Shown here: positions 2,951 through 38,001 of the stretch, in pieces
How the letters are laid out: each line of letters opens with the position of its first letter
How positions within the stretch are numbered: the first letter of the stretch is position 1
From: Kordiimonas sp. SCSIO 12603
Lineage (GTDB): Bacteria > Pseudomonadota > Alphaproteobacteria > Sphingomonadales > Kordiimonadaceae
Direction: 5' to 3'
Length of the DNA: 64,000 bases
Assembly (NCBI RefSeq): GCF_024398035.1
Contig: NZ_CP073748.1
Coordinates: forward strand, 3,153,001 to 3,217,000
Notes under the pieces: model-generated
The model's input: only the letters and a program-made list of their open reading frames with translations
What the model was told of the DNA's origin: nothing
Databases searched by the model: none
Translations under genes and position numbers: made by a program

Positions 2951-2979
2951 GGTATATCCCTCTGCTTCGCCCTCGTCAA
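2951..2979 (-). promoter_or_regulatory. Sigma-70-type promoter for tRNA-Met
   Basis: On the minus strand TTGACG is followed by a 17-base spacer and TATACC, a close match to the -35/-10 consensus with ideal spacing. It would start transcription about 50 bases before the mature tRNA 5' end. The rest of the 2892-3116 gap contains the OsmC leader. No other structure is evident there. Confidence 0.55.
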
Positions 2980-3116
2980 CCAGATTTTTTCATAAACTCG
3001 TAAAAATTTCCACCCGCAAACGGAAGTTCCGTTTTTCTCGCTTATTCGGCATATATAGCAATTTGTTTAAACCCGATTTCCGGCCTATATTGTAGAAACA
3101 CAATTGGGGAATAGAC

Positions 3117-3599
3117 ATGACCGAATGGCGCGAACATAATTATAAATCCAGTATCATATGGACGGGTGCTGGCACACAAGGCACGAAAAGTTACCTAAGT
3201 TATGAGCGCGATTATGAAATTCATATAGAAGGGAAACCTTCTATAAAAGGCTCTTCTGATCCCATGTTCAGGGGAAATCCCGATGTACACAACCCGGAAG
3301 ATATGTTTCTAGCATCCGTATCAGCCTGTCATATGCTTTGGTTTCTTCATATCTGTTCTACGAACCGAATTTTGGTGAGTGCTTATAACGACCATGCAGA
3401 AGGCACGATGCATGAAGGAGAAGATGGAGCGGGCCAATTCACCAGCGTCACCCTGCATCCACATGCAACAATCACACGTAAAGCTGACCTCCGCAAAGCA
3501 CACGATGCGCATATCGAAGCTAATAAAAAATGCTTTATTGCCAACTCACTGAATTTTCCAGTGCATCATCATGCAACATTTGATTGCCTCGGTGATTAA
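3117..3599 (+). CDS. OsmC family peroxiredoxin-like protein
   Basis: A 160-residue cytoplasmic protein of the OsmC/Ohr superfamily, which reduces organic peroxides with a two-cysteine mechanism. The peroxidatic cysteine lies in NPEDMFLASVSACHM and the second cysteine in NKKCFIANSLNFPV. Spacing and order fit the family, although the C-terminal motif is closer to general OsmC/YhfA members than to Ohr. The ATG follows GGGGAATAGAC. It ends 4 bases inside the convergent TetR gene. A role in handling lipid peroxides beside an alkane hydroxylase is plausible but inferred. Confidence 0.85.
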   Translation: MTEWREHNYKSSIIWTGAGTQGTKSYLSYERDYEIHIEGKPSIKGSSDPMFRGNPDVHNPEDMFLASVSACHMLWFLHICSTNRILVSAYNDHAEGTMHEGEDGAGQFTSVTLHPHATITRKADLRKAHDAHIEANKKCFIANSLNFPVHHHATFDCLGD

Positions 3600-4189
3600 G
3601 AACGCCCGTACGCTAACACCACTTGAATAGTATGATCGGTGAAACGTTCAATTTTCTCTTCCGGTTCACCGTCTAGTTTCATCAGTGCAAGTGTATGACT
3701 TGCCGAAAGCAAAATACGCGCATCATCTCGGTTTTCTTTGCTGATGCTATCCTCACAAGCCCACAAGATTTCACTTACCTTGCTTAGGATTTGTTCCTGC
3801 ACCGCCATAAACCGCGACCTAAGTTCGAGATCAAATCTTGTGCTCCAGCCTAACCAGACCTTCATATAGCTTGGTTTTTCATCCAGCACGAACAACGCCC
3901 TAGCGGATAGCGCTTTTAGAATAGCAGGCGCACCTACCGTATGTGGTTCCACATCGTTAAAAAAGGTCAGGAAATAGCGCCCTACTTCATCAACTACTTC
4001 CTCAAGAAGCGCTTCACGAGTTGGGAAATACACAAAGGTCGCGGCTGTCGAAATTCCCACACGTCGGGCAATATCAGCATGCTTTGCTTCCCCGATTCCC
4101 TTTTCCGCAAACAGATCAATAGCTGCTTCAAGAAGCTGCTGTTTTCTTTTTTCAGGGCTTAGGCGCTTACGAGTAGTTGATTGAGACAC
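3596..4189 (-). CDS. TetR/AcrR family transcriptional regulator, probably controls alkB
   Basis: A 197-residue repressor. Residues about 10-60 hold the TetR helix-turn-helix (LLEAAIDLFAEKGIGEAKHA then IARRVGISTAATFVYFPTR). The C-terminal part is the variable all-helical ligand domain. The gene is divergent from alkB with about 160 bases between the two starts, the usual arrangement for a local repressor. Palindromic AT-rich sequence in that gap is a candidate operator. The likely ligand would be an alkane, alcohol or fatty acyl compound, inferred only from context. Confidence 0.85.
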   Translation of the reverse strand: MSQSTTRKRLSPEKRKQQLLEAAIDLFAEKGIGEAKHADIARRVGISTAATFVYFPTREALLEEVVDEVGRYFLTFFNDVEPHTVGAPAILKALSARALFVLDEKPSYMKVWLGWSTRFDLELRSRFMAVQEQILSKVSEILWACEDSISKENRDDARILLSASHTLALMKLDGEPEEKIERFTDHTIQVVLAYGRS

Positions 4190-4276
4190 ATTCTATCCTA
4201 TTGGCTTCACAGCTATTTTTTAGCCCTATTCCGCCTCTTAACTCAAGCTATTCCCACCTTTACTCTAAAGAATATA

Positions 4277-4306
4277 TAGTTTTTCTTGTTATTGATAAAA
4301 CTATCA
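4277..4306. promoter_or_regulatory. Candidate TetR operator between the regulator and alkB
   Basis: Two overlapping inverted repeats are visible. TAGTTTT (4277-4283) pairs with AAAACTA (4297-4303), and TGATA (4293-4297) pairs with TATCA (4302-4306). TetR dimers bind palindromes of about this size, and the site lies in the divergent intergenic region. The region is AT-rich, so chance palindromes are possible. Confidence 0.4.
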
Positions 4307-4352
4307 TTAATAATCATAAAACGCCTTAATCAATACCTTTGGGGAGAGGAAC

Positions 4353-5528
4353 ATGGCAGATACTGCGGCGACAGATTATGTGGACGGCAAAAAATGGTTT
4401 TGGCCGCTCGCTACCATTCTTGGTTTTTTGCCCGTGGCCTCCATGTGGGTTTATTTGCAAACAGGGAGCGAGGCTTGGCTCTGGTCATCACCTCTATTCT
4501 TCTATGTTCTGGTACCAATTATTGAGACCTTCTTTGGTGAAGATGAAAACAACCCTCCGCGAGAAGCTATTCCTGCCCTAAGGGATGATCCATTTTACCG
4601 GTGGGCTGCTTTTTCAGCCCTTCCTGTATCTTATCTTAACTGGATTGTTGGAGCGTGGTTTATCGCTACACAGGACCTTAGCCTTAACGGTTATATTGCC
4701 ATTTTGGTTGCCAACGGTCTGATGGGTGCGGGAGCTCTCAATACAGCACACGAAGTTGGCCACCGCCGGGATAAAATGTCCCTTTTTGTAGCACGTTACC
4801 TTCTTTGCCTGTGTGGTATGGGGCACTTCAGGATTGAACATAACCTTGGCCACCATGTGCAAGTAGCAACACCCGAAGATAGCGCTACAGCCATGATGGG
4901 AGAAACATTCTATGCATTTGTTCTGCATGAACTACCAGGCGGTTACAAACGCGCATGGGGTATTGAAAAGAAACGCCTAGCTAAGAAAGGAAAATCAGCA
5001 TTCTCACTGGAAAACGAAGTTCTTCAGAATACCCTTATCACTATCTTTTTCTATACAGCACTCACAGCTTATTTTGGATGGGCCATTCTCCCCTACCTGC
5101 TTGGCGGCGCGTTACTCTCTAACCTGATGTTATCCAGTGCCAACTATGTAGAACATTATGGCCTGATGCGTGCGAAACGGGATGATGGCCGTTATGAGCG
5201 CGTTCAACCACATCATAGTTGGAATGCAAACCACATCGTTTCAAACATTATGATGTTCCACCTACAACGACATTCTGATCACCATGCCCATGCAGAACGC
5301 CCATATCAATGTTTGAGGCACTTTGACACGTCTCCTCAACTACCAGCAGGATACTTCACTATGTTTATGGCTGCGTGGAATCCACCAATCTGGTTCAAAA
5401 TCATGGACCCTCTGGTCGCAGAACAAATGGAAGGTGACATGACCAAGGCCTATATTAAACCTTCAAAGCGAGAGAAGATATTTGCCAAATATCACAAGCC
5501 TGAAAGTTCACTTCAGGCAGCCGAATAG
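4353..5528 (+). CDS. alkB: Alkane 1-monooxygenase (membrane diiron hydroxylase)
   Basis: A 391-residue integral-membrane non-haem diiron enzyme that oxidises the terminal methyl of medium-chain alkanes to a 1-alkanol, taking electrons from rubredoxin and rubredoxin reductase. The diagnostic histidine boxes are all present: HEVGH (133-137), EHNLGHH (162-168), and LQRHSDHHAHAERPYQ (about 304-319). The AlkB signature NYVEHYGL lies at 264-271. About six hydrophobic segments precede and separate the boxes. Length is typical of AlkB. The ATG follows GGGGAGAGGAAC. No rubredoxin, reductase or alcohol dehydrogenase gene is adjacent, so electron partners must be elsewhere. The divergent TetR gene is the probable regulator. 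Confidence 0.95.
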   Translation: MADTAATDYVDGKKWFWPLATILGFLPVASMWVYLQTGSEAWLWSSPLFFYVLVPIIETFFGEDENNPPREAIPALRDDPFYRWAAFSALPVSYLNWIVGAWFIATQDLSLNGYIAILVANGLMGAGALNTAHEVGHRRDKMSLFVARYLLCLCGMGHFRIEHNLGHHVQVATPEDSATAMMGETFYAFVLHELPGGYKRAWGIEKKRLAKKGKSAFSLENEVLQNTLITIFFYTALTAYFGWAILPYLLGGALLSNLMLSSANYVEHYGLMRAKRDDGRYERVQPHHSWNANHIVSNIMMFHLQRHSDHHAHAERPYQCLRHFDTSPQLPAGYFTMFMAAWNPPIWFKIMDPLVAEQMEGDMTKAYIKPSKREKIFAKYHKPESSLQAAE

Positions 5529-5539
5529 CTAAAGTAAAC

Positions 5540-5570
5540 GCTAAAGCATTATAGTATTTGGTGCTTTAGC
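5540..5570 (+). terminator. Hairpin after alkB
   Basis: GCTAAAGCA and TGCTTTAGC form a perfect 9-bp stem around a 13-base loop just after the alkB stop. It lacks a clear U-tract, so it may be a weak terminator or an mRNA-stabilising structure. Confidence 0.4.
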
Positions 5571-5636
5571 TATTCCCATCCCCTTCTATTCCCTTATAGT
5601 AGCATACGAGATAAAGCCTAAGGCGCAGGAGATCAT

Positions 5637-7388
5637 ATGCTTACAGGGACAGGCACCAGCGAGCAGCAAAAAAACACACAGGTACTAAACCTTATTAAAG
5701 AAAGCCGCACAGCATTAGCTGGCGGAGACTTAAAAGGTGGACTTGCAAATCTCTTAACCGCTTTTGAAATAAAGCCTGAAGATGAAATCGTACAAACGGT
5801 TCTGTTCGACCTTCTTTCCTGTACACAAGGCTATGTTTTACCGAGAACCACCACCGATAAACTGGCTTACATAGCCCTTCAGGATAATCAAAACATCCAA
5901 GCTTTAGCCATGGTACTACGTAATCAGCTTGCACAAGATATAGACGCTAAAAAATTGGTTTCACGATTAACCACGGAGCCGTCTATTGATTTCTTCACGG
6001 ACGAGACCTTAGACCTCATTGATACAGTTTTCTCAGATCATCTGCTGCAACTAGTTGCAGCAAAAACCACATGCATATCCGAAGTGCTAGAAGATATGAT
6101 CACAGGACTAAGGAAACATTCACTAGCTCTTTACTATAGTGAAAATCCACACAAGCAGGCCATTCTGGAAAGACTACAGGTTTACCTCTCAATAACAGCG
6201 TGCCAGTGTTTCAATACAGAGTATGTCTTTTCATTTGATGACAGTGAACTCACTCTGATTTCCAGACTTCTCGAAGACTGTTCAAGCGCTCACGAACAAG
6301 CTGGTAATTTTGAGATTATTCTTCTGGCAAACTATTCCCCTATCCTTAGTACGATTTTATCCTGGGACAGCTCTCATATTGAAACGCTGATAACAGAAGC
6401 TAAATCCATTTCAAATTGGACCTTGCTTCTTTGGCAAACCATATACTCTGAACCAGTAAAAGAGCAGGTTTCCATTCAATCTATTCCTGTATTGGATGAG
6501 ATATCAAATGAACATTCCGTAGGAATAGCAGATCAATATAACAGCTTTCCGTACCCCCGTTGGCAGACCACGAAAACTGTAACACCTGCAAGCCTTAAAG
6601 CGCTCATTACCGAGTTATATGGCAGTGATGCCCCCGCAGACTTTCCGGCAGCCAATCTTAGCACACTTTATGCAGGCTGCGGAACGGGTGAACAGGTTCT
6701 AAAAACAGAGAGTATGGTAACTTCTGAAAAAGCACTGGCTGTAGATTTAAGTAAGGCAAGCCTAGCATATGCTCAACGCGTCACCCAAGATCACAAACTT
6801 GAAAATGTACATTACGCCTGTGGTGATATTCTCAACGCCCCAAGCTGGGATGCTTCCTTTGATTTAATCGTCTGCACAGGAGTTCTTCACCATATGAAGG
6901 ACCCATTGGCTGGCCTTCAATCTCTTAAATCAGTTAGCAAACCACACTCACTGTTCCATCTGGCATTATACAGCACCAGAGCCCGAGAAAATGTAAGAGA
7001 AATCCGAGAATATATAAACGCTCACAATATTCCCGGGAACCATGCAGGCATTCGCGCCATCCGGGAAATGATCAAAGACCTTCCAACAGACCATAAATTG
7101 AAATCCCTACAAGAAACTCGTGAATTTTATTCAATCAGTGGCTTTCATGACTATATCTTCAACATTCACGAAATTACATATACGCCGCTGGAAGTAAAAG
7201 ATTTGCTAGCATCTGCCAACCTTAAACTGCTTGGTATTGATGGGGATAAATCTGGCGTAAAAAATAGATATTTAACTGCTTTCCCAGATGATCCATATAT
7301 GAAAAACTTGGATAACTGGGAAGAATTTGAAAAACAAAACCCTGATTGTTTTTCTGGCATGATGCACTTTTGGGCCTGTCACGCATGA
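5637..7388 (+). CDS. Class I SAM-dependent methyltransferase with long N-terminal helical region
   Basis: A 583-residue protein. The C-terminal half contains a Rossmann methyltransferase. Motif I is TLYAGCGTGEQVL (about residue 340), followed by the acidic strand end ALAVDLS and the post-I motif FDLIVCTGVLHHM. A YNSFPYPRW motif precedes it. The first ~290 residues are helical. The opening resembles a tetratricopeptide pair (ALAGGDLKGGLANLLTAFEI), and the rest is not recognised. There is no signal peptide. The substrate is unknown. The combination of a TPR-like N-terminus and a methyltransferase is seen in bacterial protein or glycan-modifying enzymes, but nothing here identifies the target. 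The ATG follows GCGCAGGAGATCAT. Confidence 0.75.
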   Translation: MLTGTGTSEQQKNTQVLNLIKESRTALAGGDLKGGLANLLTAFEIKPEDEIVQTVLFDLLSCTQGYVLPRTTTDKLAYIALQDNQNIQALAMVLRNQLAQDIDAKKLVSRLTTEPSIDFFTDETLDLIDTVFSDHLLQLVAAKTTCISEVLEDMITGLRKHSLALYYSENPHKQAILERLQVYLSITACQCFNTEYVFSFDDSELTLISRLLEDCSSAHEQAGNFEIILLANYSPILSTILSWDSSHIETLITEAKSISNWTLLLWQTIYSEPVKEQVSIQSIPVLDEISNEHSVGIADQYNSFPYPRWQTTKTVTPASLKALITELYGSDAPADFPAANLSTLYAGCGTGEQVLKTESMVTSEKALAVDLSKASLAYAQRVTQDHKLENVHYACGDILNAPSWDASFDLIVCTGVLHHMKDPLAGLQSLKSVSKPHSLFHLALYSTRARENVREIREYINAHNIPGNHAGIRAIREMIKDLPTDHKLKSLQETREFYSISGFHDYIFNIHEITYTPLEVKDLLASANLKLLGIDGDKSGVKNRYLTAFPDDPYMKNLDNWEEFEKQNPDCFSGMMHFWACHA

Positions 7389-31097: not shown

Positions 31098-31940
31098 CTA
31101 ACCCAACCCCATCAACTGTTCCGCAGTACCATCTGACGGAACATACATTCCTCGCTGGCCTTTAACAGGTTTGAAAGAATCTGTAATACCCAGAACGGTT
31201 TCTGCAGCACCAAGGAACAAGGTTCCATCACTCGCCAAAACTTTACGCATACGGTCAAGCACTTGGCCTTTAGTTTTCTGATCAAAATAAATCAATACGT
31301 TACGACAATAAATCACATCAAACGTACCCAGTGCCGCAAAGTTATCAAGCAAGTTAAATGGGCGGAATTTTACCATATTGCGAATATCATCGCTTAACTG
31401 CCAAACATCGCCTTCCTGCGTGAAATATTTGATAAGTAGCTGAATTGGCAGACCACGCTGTACTTCGAACTGGCTATATTTGCCGGCCTTAGCCTTTTCA
31501 AGAACCTGCGTACAAATATCTGTGCCAACAATTTCAATATTCCAATTGCTATACTTAATACCTGCCTCTTTCAACAAAATCGCAAGCGAATACGGCTCCT
31601 GCCCTGTTGAAGCAGCTGCACACCAAATGCGTAAACGTTTCTGTGTACCACGTGCCTTTTCCATTGCTGGCAACACATGATTTTTGAAAAGATCAAACGG
31701 TGTGTTGTCACGGAAGAAGAACGACTCATTTGTAGTCATCGCTTCCGTCACATCTTTCAACAACGTCTGATCTGTCTTCATCCGTAATTTCTGGACCAGT
31801 GCATCAAGTGTATCCAGGCCTCGTTTCCGTGCAAGTGGCGTCAGCCTACTTTCAAGGAGATACACCTTGTCCGGTGTCAGCATCAGGCCTGACCGCTCTT
31901 TCAGAGTCCCTGCGAGAAAGTCAAAATCAGCTGTATTCAC
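31098..31940 (-). CDS. cheR: Chemotaxis protein methyltransferase CheR
   Basis: A 280-residue SAM-dependent enzyme that methylates glutamates of chemoreceptors. The N-terminal helical domain (1-75) has TNESFFFRDNTPFDLF. Motif I is RIWCAAASTGQEPYSLAILL, and VIYCRNVLIYFDQKTK lies near the C-terminus. It overlaps cheB by one base and is the last gene of the che operon. Confidence 0.95.
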   Translation of the reverse strand: MNTADFDFLAGTLKERSGLMLTPDKVYLLESRLTPLARKRGLDTLDALVQKLRMKTDQTLLKDVTEAMTTNESFFFRDNTPFDLFKNHVLPAMEKARGTQKRLRIWCAAASTGQEPYSLAILLKEAGIKYSNWNIEIVGTDICTQVLEKAKAGKYSQFEVQRGLPIQLLIKYFTQEGDVWQLSDDIRNMVKFRPFNLLDNFAALGTFDVIYCRNVLIYFDQKTKGQVLDRMRKVLASDGTLFLGAAETVLGITDSFKPVKGQRGMYVPSDGTAEQLMGLG

Positions 31941-33214
31941 TAGTGTCCTCCTTGCAACCGCTTCACAGTCGCGTCGCCCAAATCATCAATAGACAGCACC
32001 TCAGTACAAAGCCCTGCTGTCGCTACGGCGCCTGGCATACCCCACACCACGCTGGACGCTTCATCTTGTGCCAAGAGCGTACCCCCCGCTCTCACCAAAT
32101 CTCTGGCCCCTTTTAGACCATCGTGCCCCATGCCGGTTAAAATAACGGCAAGTGTAGCACCACCATATAGTTTACTCGCACTTCTAAAGAGTGGATCAAC
32201 CGCTGGCTTGCAGAAATTTTCTGGTGGATCATCCGTTAACCGAACAATTTTTTTACCATTTTCTTCTGCCACTTCCATGTGCTTACCGCCCGGAGCAACA
32301 TAAATATTACCGCCTATCAGCTCTAAACCATCAACCGCTTCCTGCGAAGGCCATCCAGTTGTCTGCCCGAGGTGATCTGCAAGAATGGCCGTAAAAGTTG
32401 CTGGCATATGCTGGGTAATCAGGATAGGTACCTTTGGTTGCTTATCTTTAAATTGCCCAAAAAACTTCATCAGCGCCTGTGGTCCACCCGTTGAAGATCC
32501 AACAAGAAGAGCTTGTGGTTTCTTCGGAATACCCATCTGCTTACGCAGTGTAAACGCTGTGCCACCAGTTTGCGGCGCAACGGCTGCTTCAGGCTTTACA
32601 GCGCGTGTCACCACAGGAGTAGGCTTTGGTCTAGTTGGCGCTGCTACAAAGCCAGCAGGTTTTGCTTTTGCTTCAGGTTTCGCGAAAGCTACGCTTTCAC
32701 GAGCTGTTGCAGGCCCTGTCGCTGCTTTTGCAGACACAGGCAATGCCTCACCACGCTTGGAACGCCTACGCCCCGCCCATGCTTTAACTTTATCCACCAA
32801 TTCACGGCGAAAATCGATATTAGCATTCACTGAACGTGCTGTTTCCGGCTTTGGAACATAATCCACCGCGCCCATCTGTAAAGCACGCAAACTAATCTCA
32901 GCATTCTTACGCGTAAGCGTAGATGCCATAACAACTTTAATGTCCGGCACCTTCTCAATTAATTTTGGAAGCGCCGTCATCCCATCCATCTCAGGCATTT
33001 CAATATCAAGCACAACCGCTTCGAGATCGTGCTTTTCAATCTGCCGTAGTGCAACAGCGCCATTATTAGCTGTTGTTACCACTTCGATATCTGGGTCTTC
33101 TGATAAATACCTACAAAGAAATCCACGAATAATGGCACTATCGTCCACCACCATAACACGGTATGGACCCGGCTCTTTTAAGCTTTCAGATGCCTTGCTC
33201 ACAATAGAGTGCAC
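31940..33214 (-). CDS. cheB: Chemotaxis response regulator protein-glutamate methylesterase CheB
   Basis: A 424-residue CheB, longer than the usual ~350. Receiver domain (about 15-135) has Asp24-Asp25 and phosphoacceptor Asp70 in VVLDIEMPEMDG. The C-terminal methylesterase/deamidase domain (about 232-420) has catalytic Ser241 (GSSTGGPQAL), His269 (ITQHMPATFTA) and the Asp of GMGHDGLKGA. The extra length is a Lys/Ala/Pro-rich linker at about 150-230. It removes methyl groups from receptors, opposing CheR. Confidence 0.95.
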   Translation of the reverse strand: MHSIVSKASESLKEPGPYRVMVVDDSAIIRGFLCRYLSEDPDIEVVTTANNGAVALRQIEKHDLEAVVLDIEMPEMDGMTALPKLIEKVPDIKVVMASTLTRKNAEISLRALQMGAVDYVPKPETARSVNANIDFRRELVDKVKAWAGRRRSKRGEALPVSAKAATGPATARESVAFAKPEAKAKPAGFVAAPTRPKPTPVVTRAVKPEAAVAPQTGGTAFTLRKQMGIPKKPQALLVGSSTGGPQALMKFFGQFKDKQPKVPILITQHMPATFTAILADHLGQTTGWPSQEAVDGLELIGGNIYVAPGGKHMEVAEENGKKIVRLTDDPPENFCKPAVDPLFRSASKLYGGATLAVILTGMGHDGLKGARDLVRAGGTLLAQDEASSVVWGMPGAVATAGLCTEVLSIDDLGDATVKRLQGGH

Positions 33215-33227
33215 TCAATTATCCTGA

Positions 33228-33593
33228 TTAAATCAAACCAACTTGCGAGAATTTAGCCTCGATGATTTCACGATCAAACGGCTTCATAATATACTCGTTG
33301 GCACCCGCCTCAATTGCTGTGCGAATGTGTGACATATCGTTCTCTGTTGTACAGAAAACAACAACTGGCTGTTCAATACCATCTTTGGCACGCAGCGTTT
33401 TTAAAAACTGCAAACCGTCCATAACCGGCATATTCCAATCAAGAAGAACCACATCAGGCAGGTTACGATCACACGCATCGAGCGCGTCCTGTCCATCAAC
33501 AGCTTCTTCAATCTCGAAGTTCAGTTCTTCCAGAATGCGCCTTGCGACTTTTCTAATCACTCTGGAATCATCGACAACAAGACAGAGTTTCAT
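33228..33593 (-). CDS. cheY: CheY-type single-domain response regulator
   Basis: A 121-residue receiver with intact Asp8-Asp9, phosphorylated Asp52 (VVLLDWNMPVMDG), Thr82/83 and Lys104 (YIMKPF). There is no output domain, so it acts by binding, either to the motor switch (FliM) or as a phosphate sink. Gene order between cheW and cheB fits CheY. It is 13 bases upstream of cheB. Confidence 0.9.
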   Translation of the reverse strand: MKLCLVVDDSRVIRKVARRILEELNFEIEEAVDGQDALDACDRNLPDVVLLDWNMPVMDGLQFLKTLRAKDGIEQPVVVFCTTENDMSHIRTAIEAGANEYIMKPFDREIIEAKFSQVGLI

Positions 33594-33646: not shown

Positions 33647-34138
33647 TTAAGCAGCTTTTCCTTGAGTTTCAAAGGCAAGAAGTTTGTCTACATCCAGAAT
33701 CGGTAACAATTCCCCCTCCAAACGGTAAATACCACGGCTCACTTCTCTCCAACGAGGGTCAAGCGTCACCGGATTACGTTCGAAAAGCTGATCATCGAGA
33801 GATAATACTTCTCCCACAGAATCAATCTGCAAACTATATGGTTCTTCGTTATGCTCTACTACAACTGACATGCTTTGCTTATCGCCTTCAAGCGGATCAA
33901 GCCCCAAGCGGTTACGCAGGTCAATGGCGGTTACAATTCTACCACGCAGGTTCAACACACCAGAAACCCATTTAGGGGCCAGCGGGATCTTGGTAATTTT
34001 CTGGGCATTTAGCACATCATGCACAGCAAGAACCGGGATACCCAATGTCTGGCCAGCAAGTTTGATGGTTACAAAATCCTGACTACCAGTGCCGACAGCT
34101 ACAACACTTAAATCATCACGCACTACGAGATCATTCAT
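33647..34138 (-). CDS. cheW: Chemotaxis coupling protein CheW
   Basis: A 163-residue single CheW domain that links receptors to CheA. Family blocks include FVTIKLAGQTLGIPVLAVHD, VSGVLNLRGRIVTAIDLRNR and LQIDSVGEVLSL. It overlaps the end of cheA by 4 bases, indicating translational coupling and matched stoichiometry. Confidence 0.94.
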   Translation of the reverse strand: MNDLVVRDDLSVVAVGTGSQDFVTIKLAGQTLGIPVLAVHDVLNAQKITKIPLAPKWVSGVLNLRGRIVTAIDLRNRLGLDPLEGDKQSMSVVVEHNEEPYSLQIDSVGEVLSLDDQLFERNPVTLDPRWREVSRGIYRLEGELLPILDVDKLLAFETQGKAA

Positions 34139-37100
34139 GCTGCATCTCCTTTGATTTTAAGTTGCTGTGCCAGACTTCTCAGCAGCGTATCCTTATCGAA
34201 TTTCGCTACATAATCATCAAAGCCAGCCTCATACCCTCTGTTGATATCTTTCTCTTTCGCAAGAGACGACAAAGCAACGATTGGAGTACTCGCCCAGCGA
34301 TCATCAGCCTTAGCTGCCGCAACGAATTCATATCCATTCATATCCGGCATTTCGATGTCAGAGATAATCAAATCAAACATCTGACCGTCTTCCATCATCT
34401 GAAGTGCACCAGCAGCGCTCGAAACAGTAGCAACACTATAACCCGCTACTGTTAGAACCGGTTTCACCATATTACGGAAGAAATCACTATCATCGACAAG
34501 AAGCAGTTGCAGGCCACGATTATCCAAACCTTCTTCAACCATCTCACCAGAACGCATCCAATCTGAGAATGCCAGGTTCAAATAATAAGATACATCAATA
34601 ACTTCGGAAGCTTTTCCTGCAATTACCGCAGAACCAACAACACCAGCCTGATTAGAAGCCAGTTTTACATCAAGCTTCTCTTCTACAATATCTTTAATCT
34701 CATCAACCGCGAGGCCCATTGTGTATTCACGGTCAGTGAACACAAGAACTGGCTGCCTGCCTTCTTCCAACAACTCCATATCCGGGTTTGCTTTAATGAG
34801 AGGCATGAGGTTACCACGATATTGAACCATATGGCGACCGTCTGAAATCTCAACATCAGCAGTATCGATTTCCTCTAGTCGAGCAATAAGAGCTAACGGT
34901 ACAGCTTTAGGATTACCACCACCAGCGGTGAACACAAGCATGCTCTCTGTTTCGTCGTATCTAGCTCGTTGCACGGCTTCTTGCTCACCATCAGCATCTT
35001 GCTGTTGATCCTGAACACCATTATTCGCAAGAGATGCAATACCGTTTGGATCAAGGATCATAATTACACTACCATCACCGAGGATAGTATTACCTGAGTA
35101 AATATCCAAATCCTTCAGGATAGGTGCAACAGGTTTCACAACGATCTCTTCGGTATCGAACACCTGATCCACAACGATACCAAAAGTGAATGGACCTACC
35201 TGTGTTACAACAATGAAATCATCAGCTTCTTCACGTGCATCAATTTCTTCGCGTGTCATAAAGCCAAGCACTTCATTTAGATACACAAGCGGCAACAAAC
35301 GGTTCCTCAAACGAAGAACAGGCGCGTTGTTAATGGTCTCAATCTTATGTTCTGAATTATTGCTTGAATTCGCTGAAGCACGCACCAGCTCAAGTACGCT
35401 GATTTGAGGAATTGCATAACGCTCTTCCTGTGCCTTAACGATAAGGCCAGCAACAATTGCTAGTGTCAGTGGGATCTTGATATCAAACGTTGTGCCCTTG
35501 CCCTCAACCGAGGTCATGTCGATGGTGCCACCGATTTTCTCGATATTTGAACGCACAACGTCCATCCCTACACCACGGCCGGAAACACTTGTTACCTGCT
35601 CCGCTGTAGAGAAACCTGGGTGGAAAATGAATTTCTGGATTTGATTATCTGACATTTCAGCAAGTTCTGCTTCCGTCGCCAGACCTTTTTCCAAAATTTT
35701 CTTCGCAAGCTTAGCAACCGGAATACCTGCACCATCATCTTTAATTTCAATGATGATGTGACCGCCTTCATGGAAAGCATTCAAAGTAATCGTACCTTGC
35801 TCAGGCTTACCATTTGCCATCCGCACTGCAGGTGTCTCAATACCGTGATCGGCAGAGTTACGAACCATGTGAGTAAGCGGGTCTTTGATAAGCTCAAGAA
35901 CCTGACGATCCAGTTCTGTGTCAGCACCGATCATCTCAAGTTCAATTTTCTTATCAAGTTCGACTGTCAAGTCACGTACAATACGCGGCAGTTTTGCCCA
36001 AGCGTTACCGATTGGCTGCATCCGCGTTTTCATCACGTTTTCCTGCAACTCAGTAGTACACTGGCTAAGGCGCTGAAGCGGTACTGCAAGCTCTGTATTA
36101 TCCAGATTACGTGTAATCTGCAGAAGCTGGTTACGGGTCAGAACAAGTTCTGAAACCATATTCATCAAATCTTCAAGCAGTTCCACGTTCACACGAATAG
36201 ACTGCGATACCTTCTTCGTCTCTTTTGCAGGACCTGAAGCACCAGCGGCCGGGCCTGCTTTCTGCTCGGTACCTGCTTTATTTGGGGTGGATTTTGCAAC
36301 TTCCTTCGAAGCATTCACAACAGCTTCGCGAATAAGTTCAAATGTCATCACCGCTTCATCGGCATCATCACTTGATACCTGACATTCAACGAGAGCTTCT
36401 TTGACAAGTTTAAGCATCTTATCAAAGTGCCCATCACCAAAGCCTGTAACCGTTACCAGTTGACGACCAATGGTGTCCGCCGCATCAATATCATCCTTAA
36501 AGAGAGCCATCATCAGGCCAAGGAACTTCGATTTACGAAGATCAATCGCGACAGCTTCAAAAAACTTCTTAAGCTGATCATCATTTGCGATACGTGTCGC
36601 AATCAAATGCGCGGCCACCGCCACACTATCTTCACCACCAACACGGTCGTAAAGAGAACCACCAGATGAAGCCGGGGCTGCTGCTTCAGGTTCAGGTACC
36701 GTGTCATCCGCCGTATCTTCAGGGCCCGGTGCATTTGCAAATGCAGCTTCAAGCTCTTCCAGAGATACTTCACCAGGCTTCAGTGCACGCCCAAGTGTTG
36801 TATCAACAATCTCGCCATCAACGGTGTCAGGCTCATCTTCAACAGGCGCCGCGTCTGCACCCTCAGCAATCGCGTCCAGACGATTGATCAGATCACTATC
36901 ATCACCATCAGGCTCTTCTTCCGTTGCCTCAAGGCCAGCGAGAATTTCTTTAATACGGTCCAAACTCTCGAGAATCACCGTTACCGAATGCTCGGAAACT
37001 TCAAGTTCACCATCTCGGAATTTGCCAAGTACGTTTTCAGATGCATGCGCTACTGATTCAAGCCTTGGTAGCCCAAGGAAGCCACATGTACCTTTAATTG

Positions 37101-37233
37101 TGTGCACTAGGCGGAAGATATTATCCAATACTTCCTTGTTGTTAGGATCTTGTTCGAGCTTCACAAGCTCAATATCAACAACATCAATGCTTTCCGCTGT
37201 TTCGGTTAGGAATTCATTTAACAGATCATCCAT
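34135..37233 (-). CDS. cheA: Hybrid chemotaxis histidine kinase CheA with inserted globin-like domain and C-terminal receiver
   Basis: A 1032-residue kinase. Order: Hpt domain (1-105, phosphorylated His44 in RLVHTIKGTCGFLG); acidic linker; an unusual globin-like domain (about 193-309); linker; dimerisation (about 343-405); HATPase (N-box HMVRNSADHGIE around 455-466, DDGAGIP 499-505, GRGVGMDVV 552-560); CheW regulatory domain (about 590-730); a second CheW-like domain (about 760-890); and receiver (908-1028, Asp914/Asp915, phosphoacceptor Asp959, Lys1011). The normal P2 response-regulator-docking domain is not evident, and the globin-like module takes its place. The receiver may act as a phosphate sink or feedback element. 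It is upstream of cheW-cheY-cheB-cheR in the same operon. Confidence 0.95.
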   Translation of the reverse strand: MDDLLNEFLTETAESIDVVDIELVKLEQDPNNKEVLDNIFRLVHTIKGTCGFLGLPRLESVAHASENVLGKFRDGELEVSEHSVTVILESLDRIKEILAGLEATEEEPDGDDSDLINRLDAIAEGADAAPVEDEPDTVDGEIVDTTLGRALKPGEVSLEELEAAFANAPGPEDTADDTVPEPEAAAPASSGGSLYDRVGGEDSVAVAAHLIATRIANDDQLKKFFEAVAIDLRKSKFLGLMMALFKDDIDAADTIGRQLVTVTGFGDGHFDKMLKLVKEALVECQVSSDDADEAVMTFELIREAVVNASKEVAKSTPNKAGTEQKAGPAAGASGPAKETKKVSQSIRVNVELLEDLMNMVSELVLTRNQLLQITRNLDNTELAVPLQRLSQCTTELQENVMKTRMQPIGNAWAKLPRIVRDLTVELDKKIELEMIGADTELDRQVLELIKDPLTHMVRNSADHGIETPAVRMANGKPEQGTITLNAFHEGGHIIIEIKDDGAGIPVAKLAKKILEKGLATEAELAEMSDNQIQKFIFHPGFSTAEQVTSVSGRGVGMDVVRSNIEKIGGTIDMTSVEGKGTTFDIKIPLTLAIVAGLIVKAQEERYAIPQISVLELVRASANSSNNSEHKIETINNAPVLRLRNRLLPLVYLNEVLGFMTREEIDAREEADDFIVVTQVGPFTFGIVVDQVFDTEEIVVKPVAPILKDLDIYSGNTILGDGSVIMILDPNGIASLANNGVQDQQQDADGEQEAVQRARYDETESMLVFTAGGGNPKAVPLALIARLEEIDTADVEISDGRHMVQYRGNLMPLIKANPDMELLEEGRQPVLVFTDREYTMGLAVDEIKDIVEEKLDVKLASNQAGVVGSAVIAGKASEVIDVSYYLNLAFSDWMRSGEMVEEGLDNRGLQLLLVDDSDFFRNMVKPVLTVAGYSVATVSSAAGALQMMEDGQMFDLIISDIEMPDMNGYEFVAAAKADDRWASTPIVALSSLAKEKDINRGYEAGFDDYVAKFDKDTLLRSLAQQLKIKGDAA
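36307..36657 (-). other. Truncated-haemoglobin-like domain inside CheA (residues about 193-309)
   Basis: The segment opens SLYDRVGGEDSV and continues with RIANDDQLKKFF, a hydrophobic helix around FLGLMMALF, then GHFDKMLKLVKEAL and a final helix. This follows group-1 truncated haemoglobins helix by helix (compare, from memory, the cyanobacterial GlbN opening TLYDNIGGQPAI and its later PHFDAI). The proximal F8 histidine expected about nine residues before the HFD motif is missing; only His209 and His269 occur in the segment, neither at that position. It is therefore likely to keep the fold but not bind haem in the usual way. Confidence 0.65.
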
Positions 37234-37362: not shown

Positions 37363-38001
37363 TTAATTATCTGAAATTATTACGGCTTTCACTTCTAACG
37401 TCTCGCCATCAATATCATTGATTGTAATTTGCCCATCACATTCCCCTATTATTGTTGCCGCCAGAAAAGCCGGAGCTGTTCTAGGTTCTACTTCTTCTTC
37501 AGAAACTTCCCCTAATAAAGCTGCCTTAACACCTTCCTGTAGAATGATCCGGTTCCCCACCCCAGTCATCTTCAGCGTGTATTGATTACTATCCTCGGAT
37601 ACTTCAACACGCAAGCTTCCGCCGCGGATTAATGTTTCAAACGTAGTAAGGCCTAAATTTAACAGCAACTTTACGACGTTTTTCGACAAGCTACGCACAG
37701 AAGACTGCCATTCCAATTCTACACGGCTACCGCTGAGCAACGCACGCATAGCTTTTTCAGCCTCAGATACATCCAAGTGCTCAGAAAAACCGCCCGCAGC
37801 TCCAAAAGCGAGTCTAAAAAACTGCAGTTTATTTGCTGTTTGTTGAGTGGATTTGGAAATCAAATCAAGAACAGCATCCCGCATACTTGCATCCTGCTCT
37901 TCCTCAAGAATTTCAAGCCCATTATTAATTGCCCCCACTGGACTTACCAGATCATGGCAAAGCCGCGAGCACAATAAGGCTGCGAAATCCATTTTAGGCA
38001 T
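37363..38001 (-). CDS. chpT: Histidine phosphotransferase ChpT
   Basis: A 212-residue protein with the ChpT signature LLCSRLCHDLVSPVGAINNG near its N-terminus. His16 is the phosphoacceptor in a four-helix-bundle-forming helix pair. The C-terminal half is a degenerate HATPase-like fold with no nucleotide-binding glycines. In Caulobacter, ChpT passes phosphate from CckA to CtrA and CpdR. It lies just upstream of cheA in the same direction, 129 bases apart. Confidence 0.92.
   Translation of the reverse strand: MPKMDFAALLCSRLCHDLVSPVGAINNGLEILEEEQDASMRDAVLDLISKSTQQTANKLQFFRLAFGAAGGFSEHLDVSEAEKAMRALLSGSRVELEWQSSVRSLSKNVVKLLLNLGLTTFETLIRGGSLRVEVSEDSNQYTLKMTGVGNRIILQEGVKAALLGEVSEEEVEPRTAPAFLAATIIGECDGQITINDIDGETLEVKAVIISDN

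Follow-up and report, generated by a model that had tools for sequence, protein, structure and literature searches.

The chemotaxis kinase CheA of Kordiimonas sp. SCSIO 12603 carries, between its P1 and P3 domains, a globin domain of the group-1 truncated haemoglobin (trHb1) type in which the haem ligands are absent, and orthologous kinases of several other alphaproteobacterial families have kept these ligands. We hold, with somewhat better than even confidence, that a gas-sensor globin built into CheA lost its haem in this bacterium and was retained as a regulatory module that works without haem. The ligands kept by the sister kinases suggest that this one formerly sensed gases directly. The window, that is, the whole stretch of 64,000 nucleotides that was analysed, includes the following genes and domains.

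34135..37233, minus strand: cheA (ORF and Pfam), 1032 aa, in the order Hpt, trHb1 domain, H-kinase_dim, HATPase_c, two CheW, REC
36946..37227, minus strand: Hpt (P1), CheA residues 3-96 (Pfam)
36721..36765, minus strand: motif SLEELEAAFANAPGP of the P1-globin linker, residues 157-171 (regular-expression count, coordinates by hand from the translation)
36304..36657, minus strand: haem-less trHb1 domain, residues 193-310 (Pfam PF01152, PDB profile, AF2 and VIA-align)
36025..36207, minus strand: H-kinase_dim (P3, dimerisation), CheA residues 343-403 (Pfam)
35464..35883, minus strand: HATPase_c (P4), CheA residues 451-590 (Pfam)
35032..35448, minus strand: CheW domain (P5), residues 596-734, the better of two CheW stretches (Pfam)
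34177..34503, minus strand: REC, CheA residues 911-1019 (Pfam)
33647..34138, minus strand: cheW (PF01584), downstream of cheA
33228..33593, minus strand: cheY-like gene with a single REC domain (PF00072), downstream of cheA
31940..33214, minus strand: cheB, named from the translation only, downstream of cheA
31098..31940, minus strand: cheR (PF01739), downstream of cheA
37363..38001, minus strand: chpT-like histidine phosphotransferase (PF10090), upstream of cheA

Hpt, H-kinase_dim, HATPase_c and CheW were all matched with Pfam, as expected of a CheA. The protein is F5-like, with two CheW domains and a C-terminal REC, a class assigned from the description in the accessible text of a CheA survey (PMC10782961) and not from a tree. 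The chpT-like neighbour of cheA seen in the window recurs at many of the other globin-CheA loci compared, a hint that the che operon is linked to the CckA-ChpT-CtrA relay.

An earlier note on this DNA had proposed that a group-1 truncated haemoglobin module sits between the Hpt and dimerisation domains, and had named a profile search, a structure prediction and a survey of alphaproteobacterial CheAs as checks. The position was borne out by the Pfam domain map, and the module proved to be real; the coordinates given in the note, 36307-36657, correspond to CheA residues 193-309. On the whole CheA, Bac_globin (PF01152) matched residues 193-306 with 15.6 bits (E 0.019), under the cut-off of 21; on the excised domain the scores were 22.2, 22.9 and 23.4 bits, over this cut-off. 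Against PDB sequences the single window domain matched trHb1s (best E 7e-6), and a profile of 41 rows of the domain family matched the trHb1 of Tetrahymena (E 5.3e-15) and Chlamydomonas THB1 (E 6.5e-15). Because of these values, for the single domain and for the profile, the resemblance to globins exceeds chance and is not to another helical bundle. Comparison of the domain profile with seven free trHbs of the window's order by hhalign gave a probability of 99.3. The AlphaFold2 model (pLDDT 95.2, pTM 0.87) shows a predicted two-over-two globin fold and matches trHb1 crystal structures; with VIA-align it was superposed on the trHb of P. caudatum (1dlw) over 114 residues, with Z 14.6 and rmsd 2.4. 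The domain is 99% identical in Kordiimonas laminariae in a search of public genomes, and the domains of different CheAs form a continuum from the window type to full trHb1 sites. Judged by profile and predicted fold, residues 193-310 of CheA are a true trHb1-type globin domain.

TyrB10 and GlnE11, which we take to be the distal residues of trHb1s, were placed by alignment. The site columns of the window domain hold Ala212 (B10), Phe237 (E11), Leu240 (E14) and Arg257 (F8) in the MAFFT alignment, and none of the residues proximal F8 His, distal TyrB10 and GlnE11 is present. The lack of the proximal histidine, remarked in the earlier note, held in either alignment, the position being occupied by Arg257 (MAFFT) or, in our reading of the HMMER alignments, by Val260; likewise, the sole histidines within residues 185-320 are 209 and 269, with none between them, as it had stated. 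Three residues are missing in the stretch before F8 compared with the free trHbs. An F8 His was found in 0 of 62 distinct domain rows of the window's order versus 17 of 17 free trHbs, all 17 of which also have TyrB10. Throughout the window's family F8 is lost, B10 is Ala or Ser, and E11 is Phe. By sequence, haem binding is judged to have been lost in the window domain. No PF01152 match at E 0.001, and hence no free trHb1, was found in the window's genome.

Orthologues with an apparently complete site, unmentioned in the earlier note, were found outside the window's order, within a set of 85 rows that was obtained from 111 CheA ORFs after removal of identical domains (L113 and L142 belong to the same genome). 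F8 His together with TyrB10 occurs in eight CheAs of seven families: L078 (= L181) of f108, L142 of f60, L144 and L160 of f117, L145 of f78, L146 of f88, L148 of f92 and L156 of f98. These contain nine such domains, two of them in L142, and GlnE11 is also present in six of the nine; L145 has a further domain with F8 His but Phe at B10. Pfam Bac_globin matched L144 at 7e-19 and matched L142 and L145 twice each. The model of the L144 domain (pLDDT 90.4) matches THB1 at Z 20.2. Because the proximal His and TyrB10 are kept, these CheAs look like direct haem gas sensors, and they most likely bind haem and sense gas (O2/NO) directly. Haem-less domains were also present outside the order, in f39 (with a shortened F helix), in f84, f100 and L157 (F8 Phe), and in L158 (F8 Leu).

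Other globin-bearing proteins and loci were recorded in the same material. In L142 (G347) and L145 (G365) a second trHb lies inside the CheW (P5) domain, and the CheW match is split around the insert. In both L151 and L152 (family f100) the cheA reading frame is broken into two ORFs. L143 encodes (2965-5829, plus strand) a chemoreceptor of 955 aa that combines a truncated globin at its N-terminus with PAS and MCPsignal. A trHb stands at the C-terminus of proteins of about 600 aa that are encoded in L159 (2977-4767, minus strand) and L191 (616-aa ORF); in L159 the approximately 480 residues before the trHb had no Pfam match at E 0.01.

To describe the distribution of the domain, genomes were surveyed with at most 11 candidates scored per genome, which makes every count from these surveys a minimum. 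The single domain was matched in at least 46 of 59 close relatives, and the profile in at least 71 of 296 genomes of the window's order. Within the order, CheA-sized frames with the domain belong to families f1, f2, f6, f7 and f8, and f5 gave short frames only; the CheAs fetched from f3, f4 and f5 had no globin match. Two surveys of the class, with 386 and 385 genomes, added CheA-sized frames with the domain in at least 11 further families. In the draw of 385 genomes, 134 had a CheA core match of at least 391 bits, and at least 19 of these, the window's included, carry the domain. The survey named in the earlier note thus recovered the same domain in orthologous CheAs of many alphaproteobacteria. 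Additional to those 19, a degenerate globin (E 6e-6) was seen in the linker of another CheA, L195 (G582). Outside Alphaproteobacteria, among 398 genomes of the phylum searched at E 1e-10, matches lay in short ORFs except in G896 (913 aa), G928 (616 aa) and G929 (486 aa); the G896 and G928 proteins are not CheA according to the core search. Globin-free F5-like CheAs are nested among the globin bearers, namely those of f4 together with individual CheAs from f6 and f8, and the globin domain is dispensable in CheA. A possible globin remnant in L129 (family f3) was not significant (E 0.02, one-sequence search).

The gene order chpT-cheA-cheW-cheY-cheB of the window is shared by the haem-type L142, L148 and L181 and by the haem-less L147, L149, L150, L152, L153, L157 and L182. 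In L145 chpT is present and the locus stops at the contig edge; in L144, L146, L156 and L158 cheW adjoins cheA and an upstream chpT is absent. Orthology based on synteny applies to some of the globin CheAs, not to all (L160 lay outside the neighbour comparison). A regular-expression count put the P1-linker motif SLEELEAAFxxAPGP in 54 of the 77 CheAs that have a globin and in 5 of 6 plus 3 of 11 that have none; every haem-type CheA within that count was without it, for which reason no conclusion was drawn on the motif as a globin-independent docking site.

A CheA core tree of 72 rows placed the window's order in a clade of 48 rows (100/99) with haem-less or globin-free members only, and at least five changes between haem and no haem were required. 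The reduced tree, from which the long f5 rows were taken out, comprised 65 rows (53 haem-less, 7 haem-type and 5 globin-free), with an order clade of 46 rows (100/99) and at least six changes; these changes were counted by parsimony and carry no direction. On this tree monophyly of the 53 haem-less rows was rejected (AU p 2.4e-5). We infer loss of haem, with haem as the ancestral state, because the free trHbs sampled retain the ligands. The globin tree itself is weak (125 columns) and did not reject a single acquisition, in which the 65 CheA globins group together (p 0.58; the tree constrained in this way was 3.3 log units better).

A different account would make the domain a substitute for P2, in which the globin fold docks CheY or CheB near P1 and speeds phosphotransfer with no ligand involved. 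The replacement of P2 considered in the earlier note stands as regards position, since the domain is placed between P1 and P3, but the ousting of a P2 found no support. The invariant residues of the globin that are specific to the family, K234, D247, C284, M296 and E299, could form an interaction face. Against this, the globin-free F5-like CheAs inspected have a P1-P3 stretch that is mostly a Pro/Ala/Glu-rich, low-complexity linker with no P2 seen, which leaves no P2 function needing replacement, and the haem-type orthologues retain pocket residues that docking alone would make unnecessary. According to the accessible part of the CheA survey, P2 is missing in over half of CheAs (PMC10782961); because of this and of the low-complexity linkers, there was perhaps no P2 to replace. 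The window CheA had no P2 or CheY-binding Pfam match at E 10, though many P2s escape HMMER according to the same part of that survey (PMC10782961). The second CheA of the genome (L121, 764 aa) likewise had no Pfam match at the place of P2, and its linker looks P2-like. We regard a role as P2 substitute as rather unlikely.

The domain could also be a passive spacer that sets the length of the P1 tether, a globin relic retained solely on account of its size and fold. Its loss without trace in some relatives is in line with this, as is a constraint below that of the CheA core in every computable pair: dN/dS of the globin exceeded that of the core in 11 of 11 finite pairs, with one further pair not computable. 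Within the window's family, however, the globin dN/dS was 0.035-0.119 in six pairs (dS saturated in one), and this haem-less globin is under purifying selection. Elsewhere the globin values were 0.040 (f39), 0.085 (haem-type), 0.171 (f8), 0.313 (f6) and 0.485 (f84), and because constraint is weak in f6 and f84 the globin of some lineages may amount to hardly more than a spacer. The domain is also nearly gap-free, with a mean pairwise identity of 0.637 (0.1% gaps) over 20 sequences, next to 0.677 for CheW2, 0.687 for REC and 0.349 (16% gaps) for linker 2, and 25 columns are invariant in the domain alignment of 24 rows. For the window domain we consider a purely passive spacer improbable.

Haem might still be bound by a different ligand residue, with the clade-specific His209 and the B10 His of family f8 as candidates. 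His209, in the B helix, is present in 59 of the 62 rows of the order (the remainder being two gaps and one Gln), in 0 of 23 other CheA rows and in 1 of 17 free trHbs; the f8 CheAs (e.g. L039 and L167) have B10 His with F8 Phe in all of their 22 rows. The pocket of the window's family, with F8, B10 and E11 all altered as described above, speaks against such binding, to which we give very little credence. The swap in f8 might serve another ligand.

That the domain is a helical bundle resembling a globin by chance has a negligible probability, for the whole-protein Pfam score under the cut-off and the 15 of 41 family members with no PF01152 match at E 1 (26 match) are outweighed by the PDB matches, the hhalign result, the AF2 fold and the unbroken series that links it to CheA domains having the whole trHb1 site, and the profile E of 5.3e-15 in effect refutes it. 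Other families tried gave a weak TetR match on the window domain (E 0.039), and, over the 41 members, P-II in three and single matches to 20 further families, all of them weak; Protoglobin (PF11563) matched one of the 41 (E 0.0025).

We return to the preferred reading, a globin gas sensor that became a haem-free regulatory module. An F5-like alphaproteobacterial CheA would have acquired a trHb1 within its P1-P3 linker. In several families the haem ligand and distal residues would have been kept, making CheA a direct haem-based O2/NO sensor. The Kordiimonas lineage and, independently, others would have lost haem and retained the folded domain. The P1-P3 linker governs the movement of P1 towards P4 and towards the response regulators, and a globin at this place could gate the reach of P1 upon a change of state. 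In the haem-less domains, a different small ligand or a protein partner, once bound, may alter the domain and thereby change the access of P1 to the P4 kinase or the response regulators; by analogy with RsbR, such a ligand or partner is most likely what they respond to. A more far-reaching version, to which we assign about an even chance, is that in several families CheA itself senses gas through haem, by a trHb1 with complete active site between P1 and P3 and, in two of them, a second trHb in P5 (L142 and L145), so that it could be gated by O2/NO with no receptor, and that after multiple haem losses the domain of Kordiimonas and its relatives was retuned, about an invariant His209 in the B helix, and now answers to some new ligand or partner. 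If this is true, a globin at the P1-P3 joint lets CheA take its own input. The series of haem-type, haem-less and globin-lost kinases at one syntenic locus allows the route from haem sensor to haem-free regulator to be tested, and also whether linker domains gate the movement of P1.

The arrangement, unfamiliar to the author of the earlier note, is apparently undescribed: no globin in CheA was met in the literature searched, which largely excludes subscription papers. The word 'globin' has no occurrence in the accessible text, supplements aside, of the CheA survey (PMC10782961). CheA is described there as lacking a sensor domain and depending on chemoreceptors. F5-class CheAs are like the window CheA in architecture (two CheW domains and REC) and in operon, the class following the accessible part of that survey, which lists P2, REC and CheC/CheX as auxiliary domains and leaves globin unmentioned (PMC10782961).

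With free trHb1s (GlbN/HbN; PF01152) the window domain shares sequence profile, helix order and predicted fold, and it differs from them in the missing proximal His, TyrB10 and GlnE11 and in its fusion within CheA. It is not a globin-coupled sensor of the protoglobin type, being truncated and internal instead of N-terminal. HemAT and other globin-coupled chemoreceptors likewise place a globin within the chemotaxis pathway, as far as the accessible text of the sources goes (PMC13401364, PMC6194562); in HemAT-type proteins the globin is in the receptor, whereas in the window it is in the kinase, downstream of the receptors. A PAS+Bac_globin MCP reported from Corallococcus in the accessible text of PMC6194562 is comparable to the chemoreceptor of L143. 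The stressosome protein RsbR is similar as a signalling protein whose sensor globin has remained a haem protein in certain lineages while others have lost the haem: in the available text, that of Vibrio (V. brasiliensis) binds haem and those of Bacillus are non-haem globins, a fatty acid being present in one crystal (PMC4976288). RsbR differs in that its globin, a relative of the sensor globins and globin-coupled sensors, is linked to STAS (PMC4976288, accessible part), whereas that of the window is of the truncated type and belongs to a histidine kinase.
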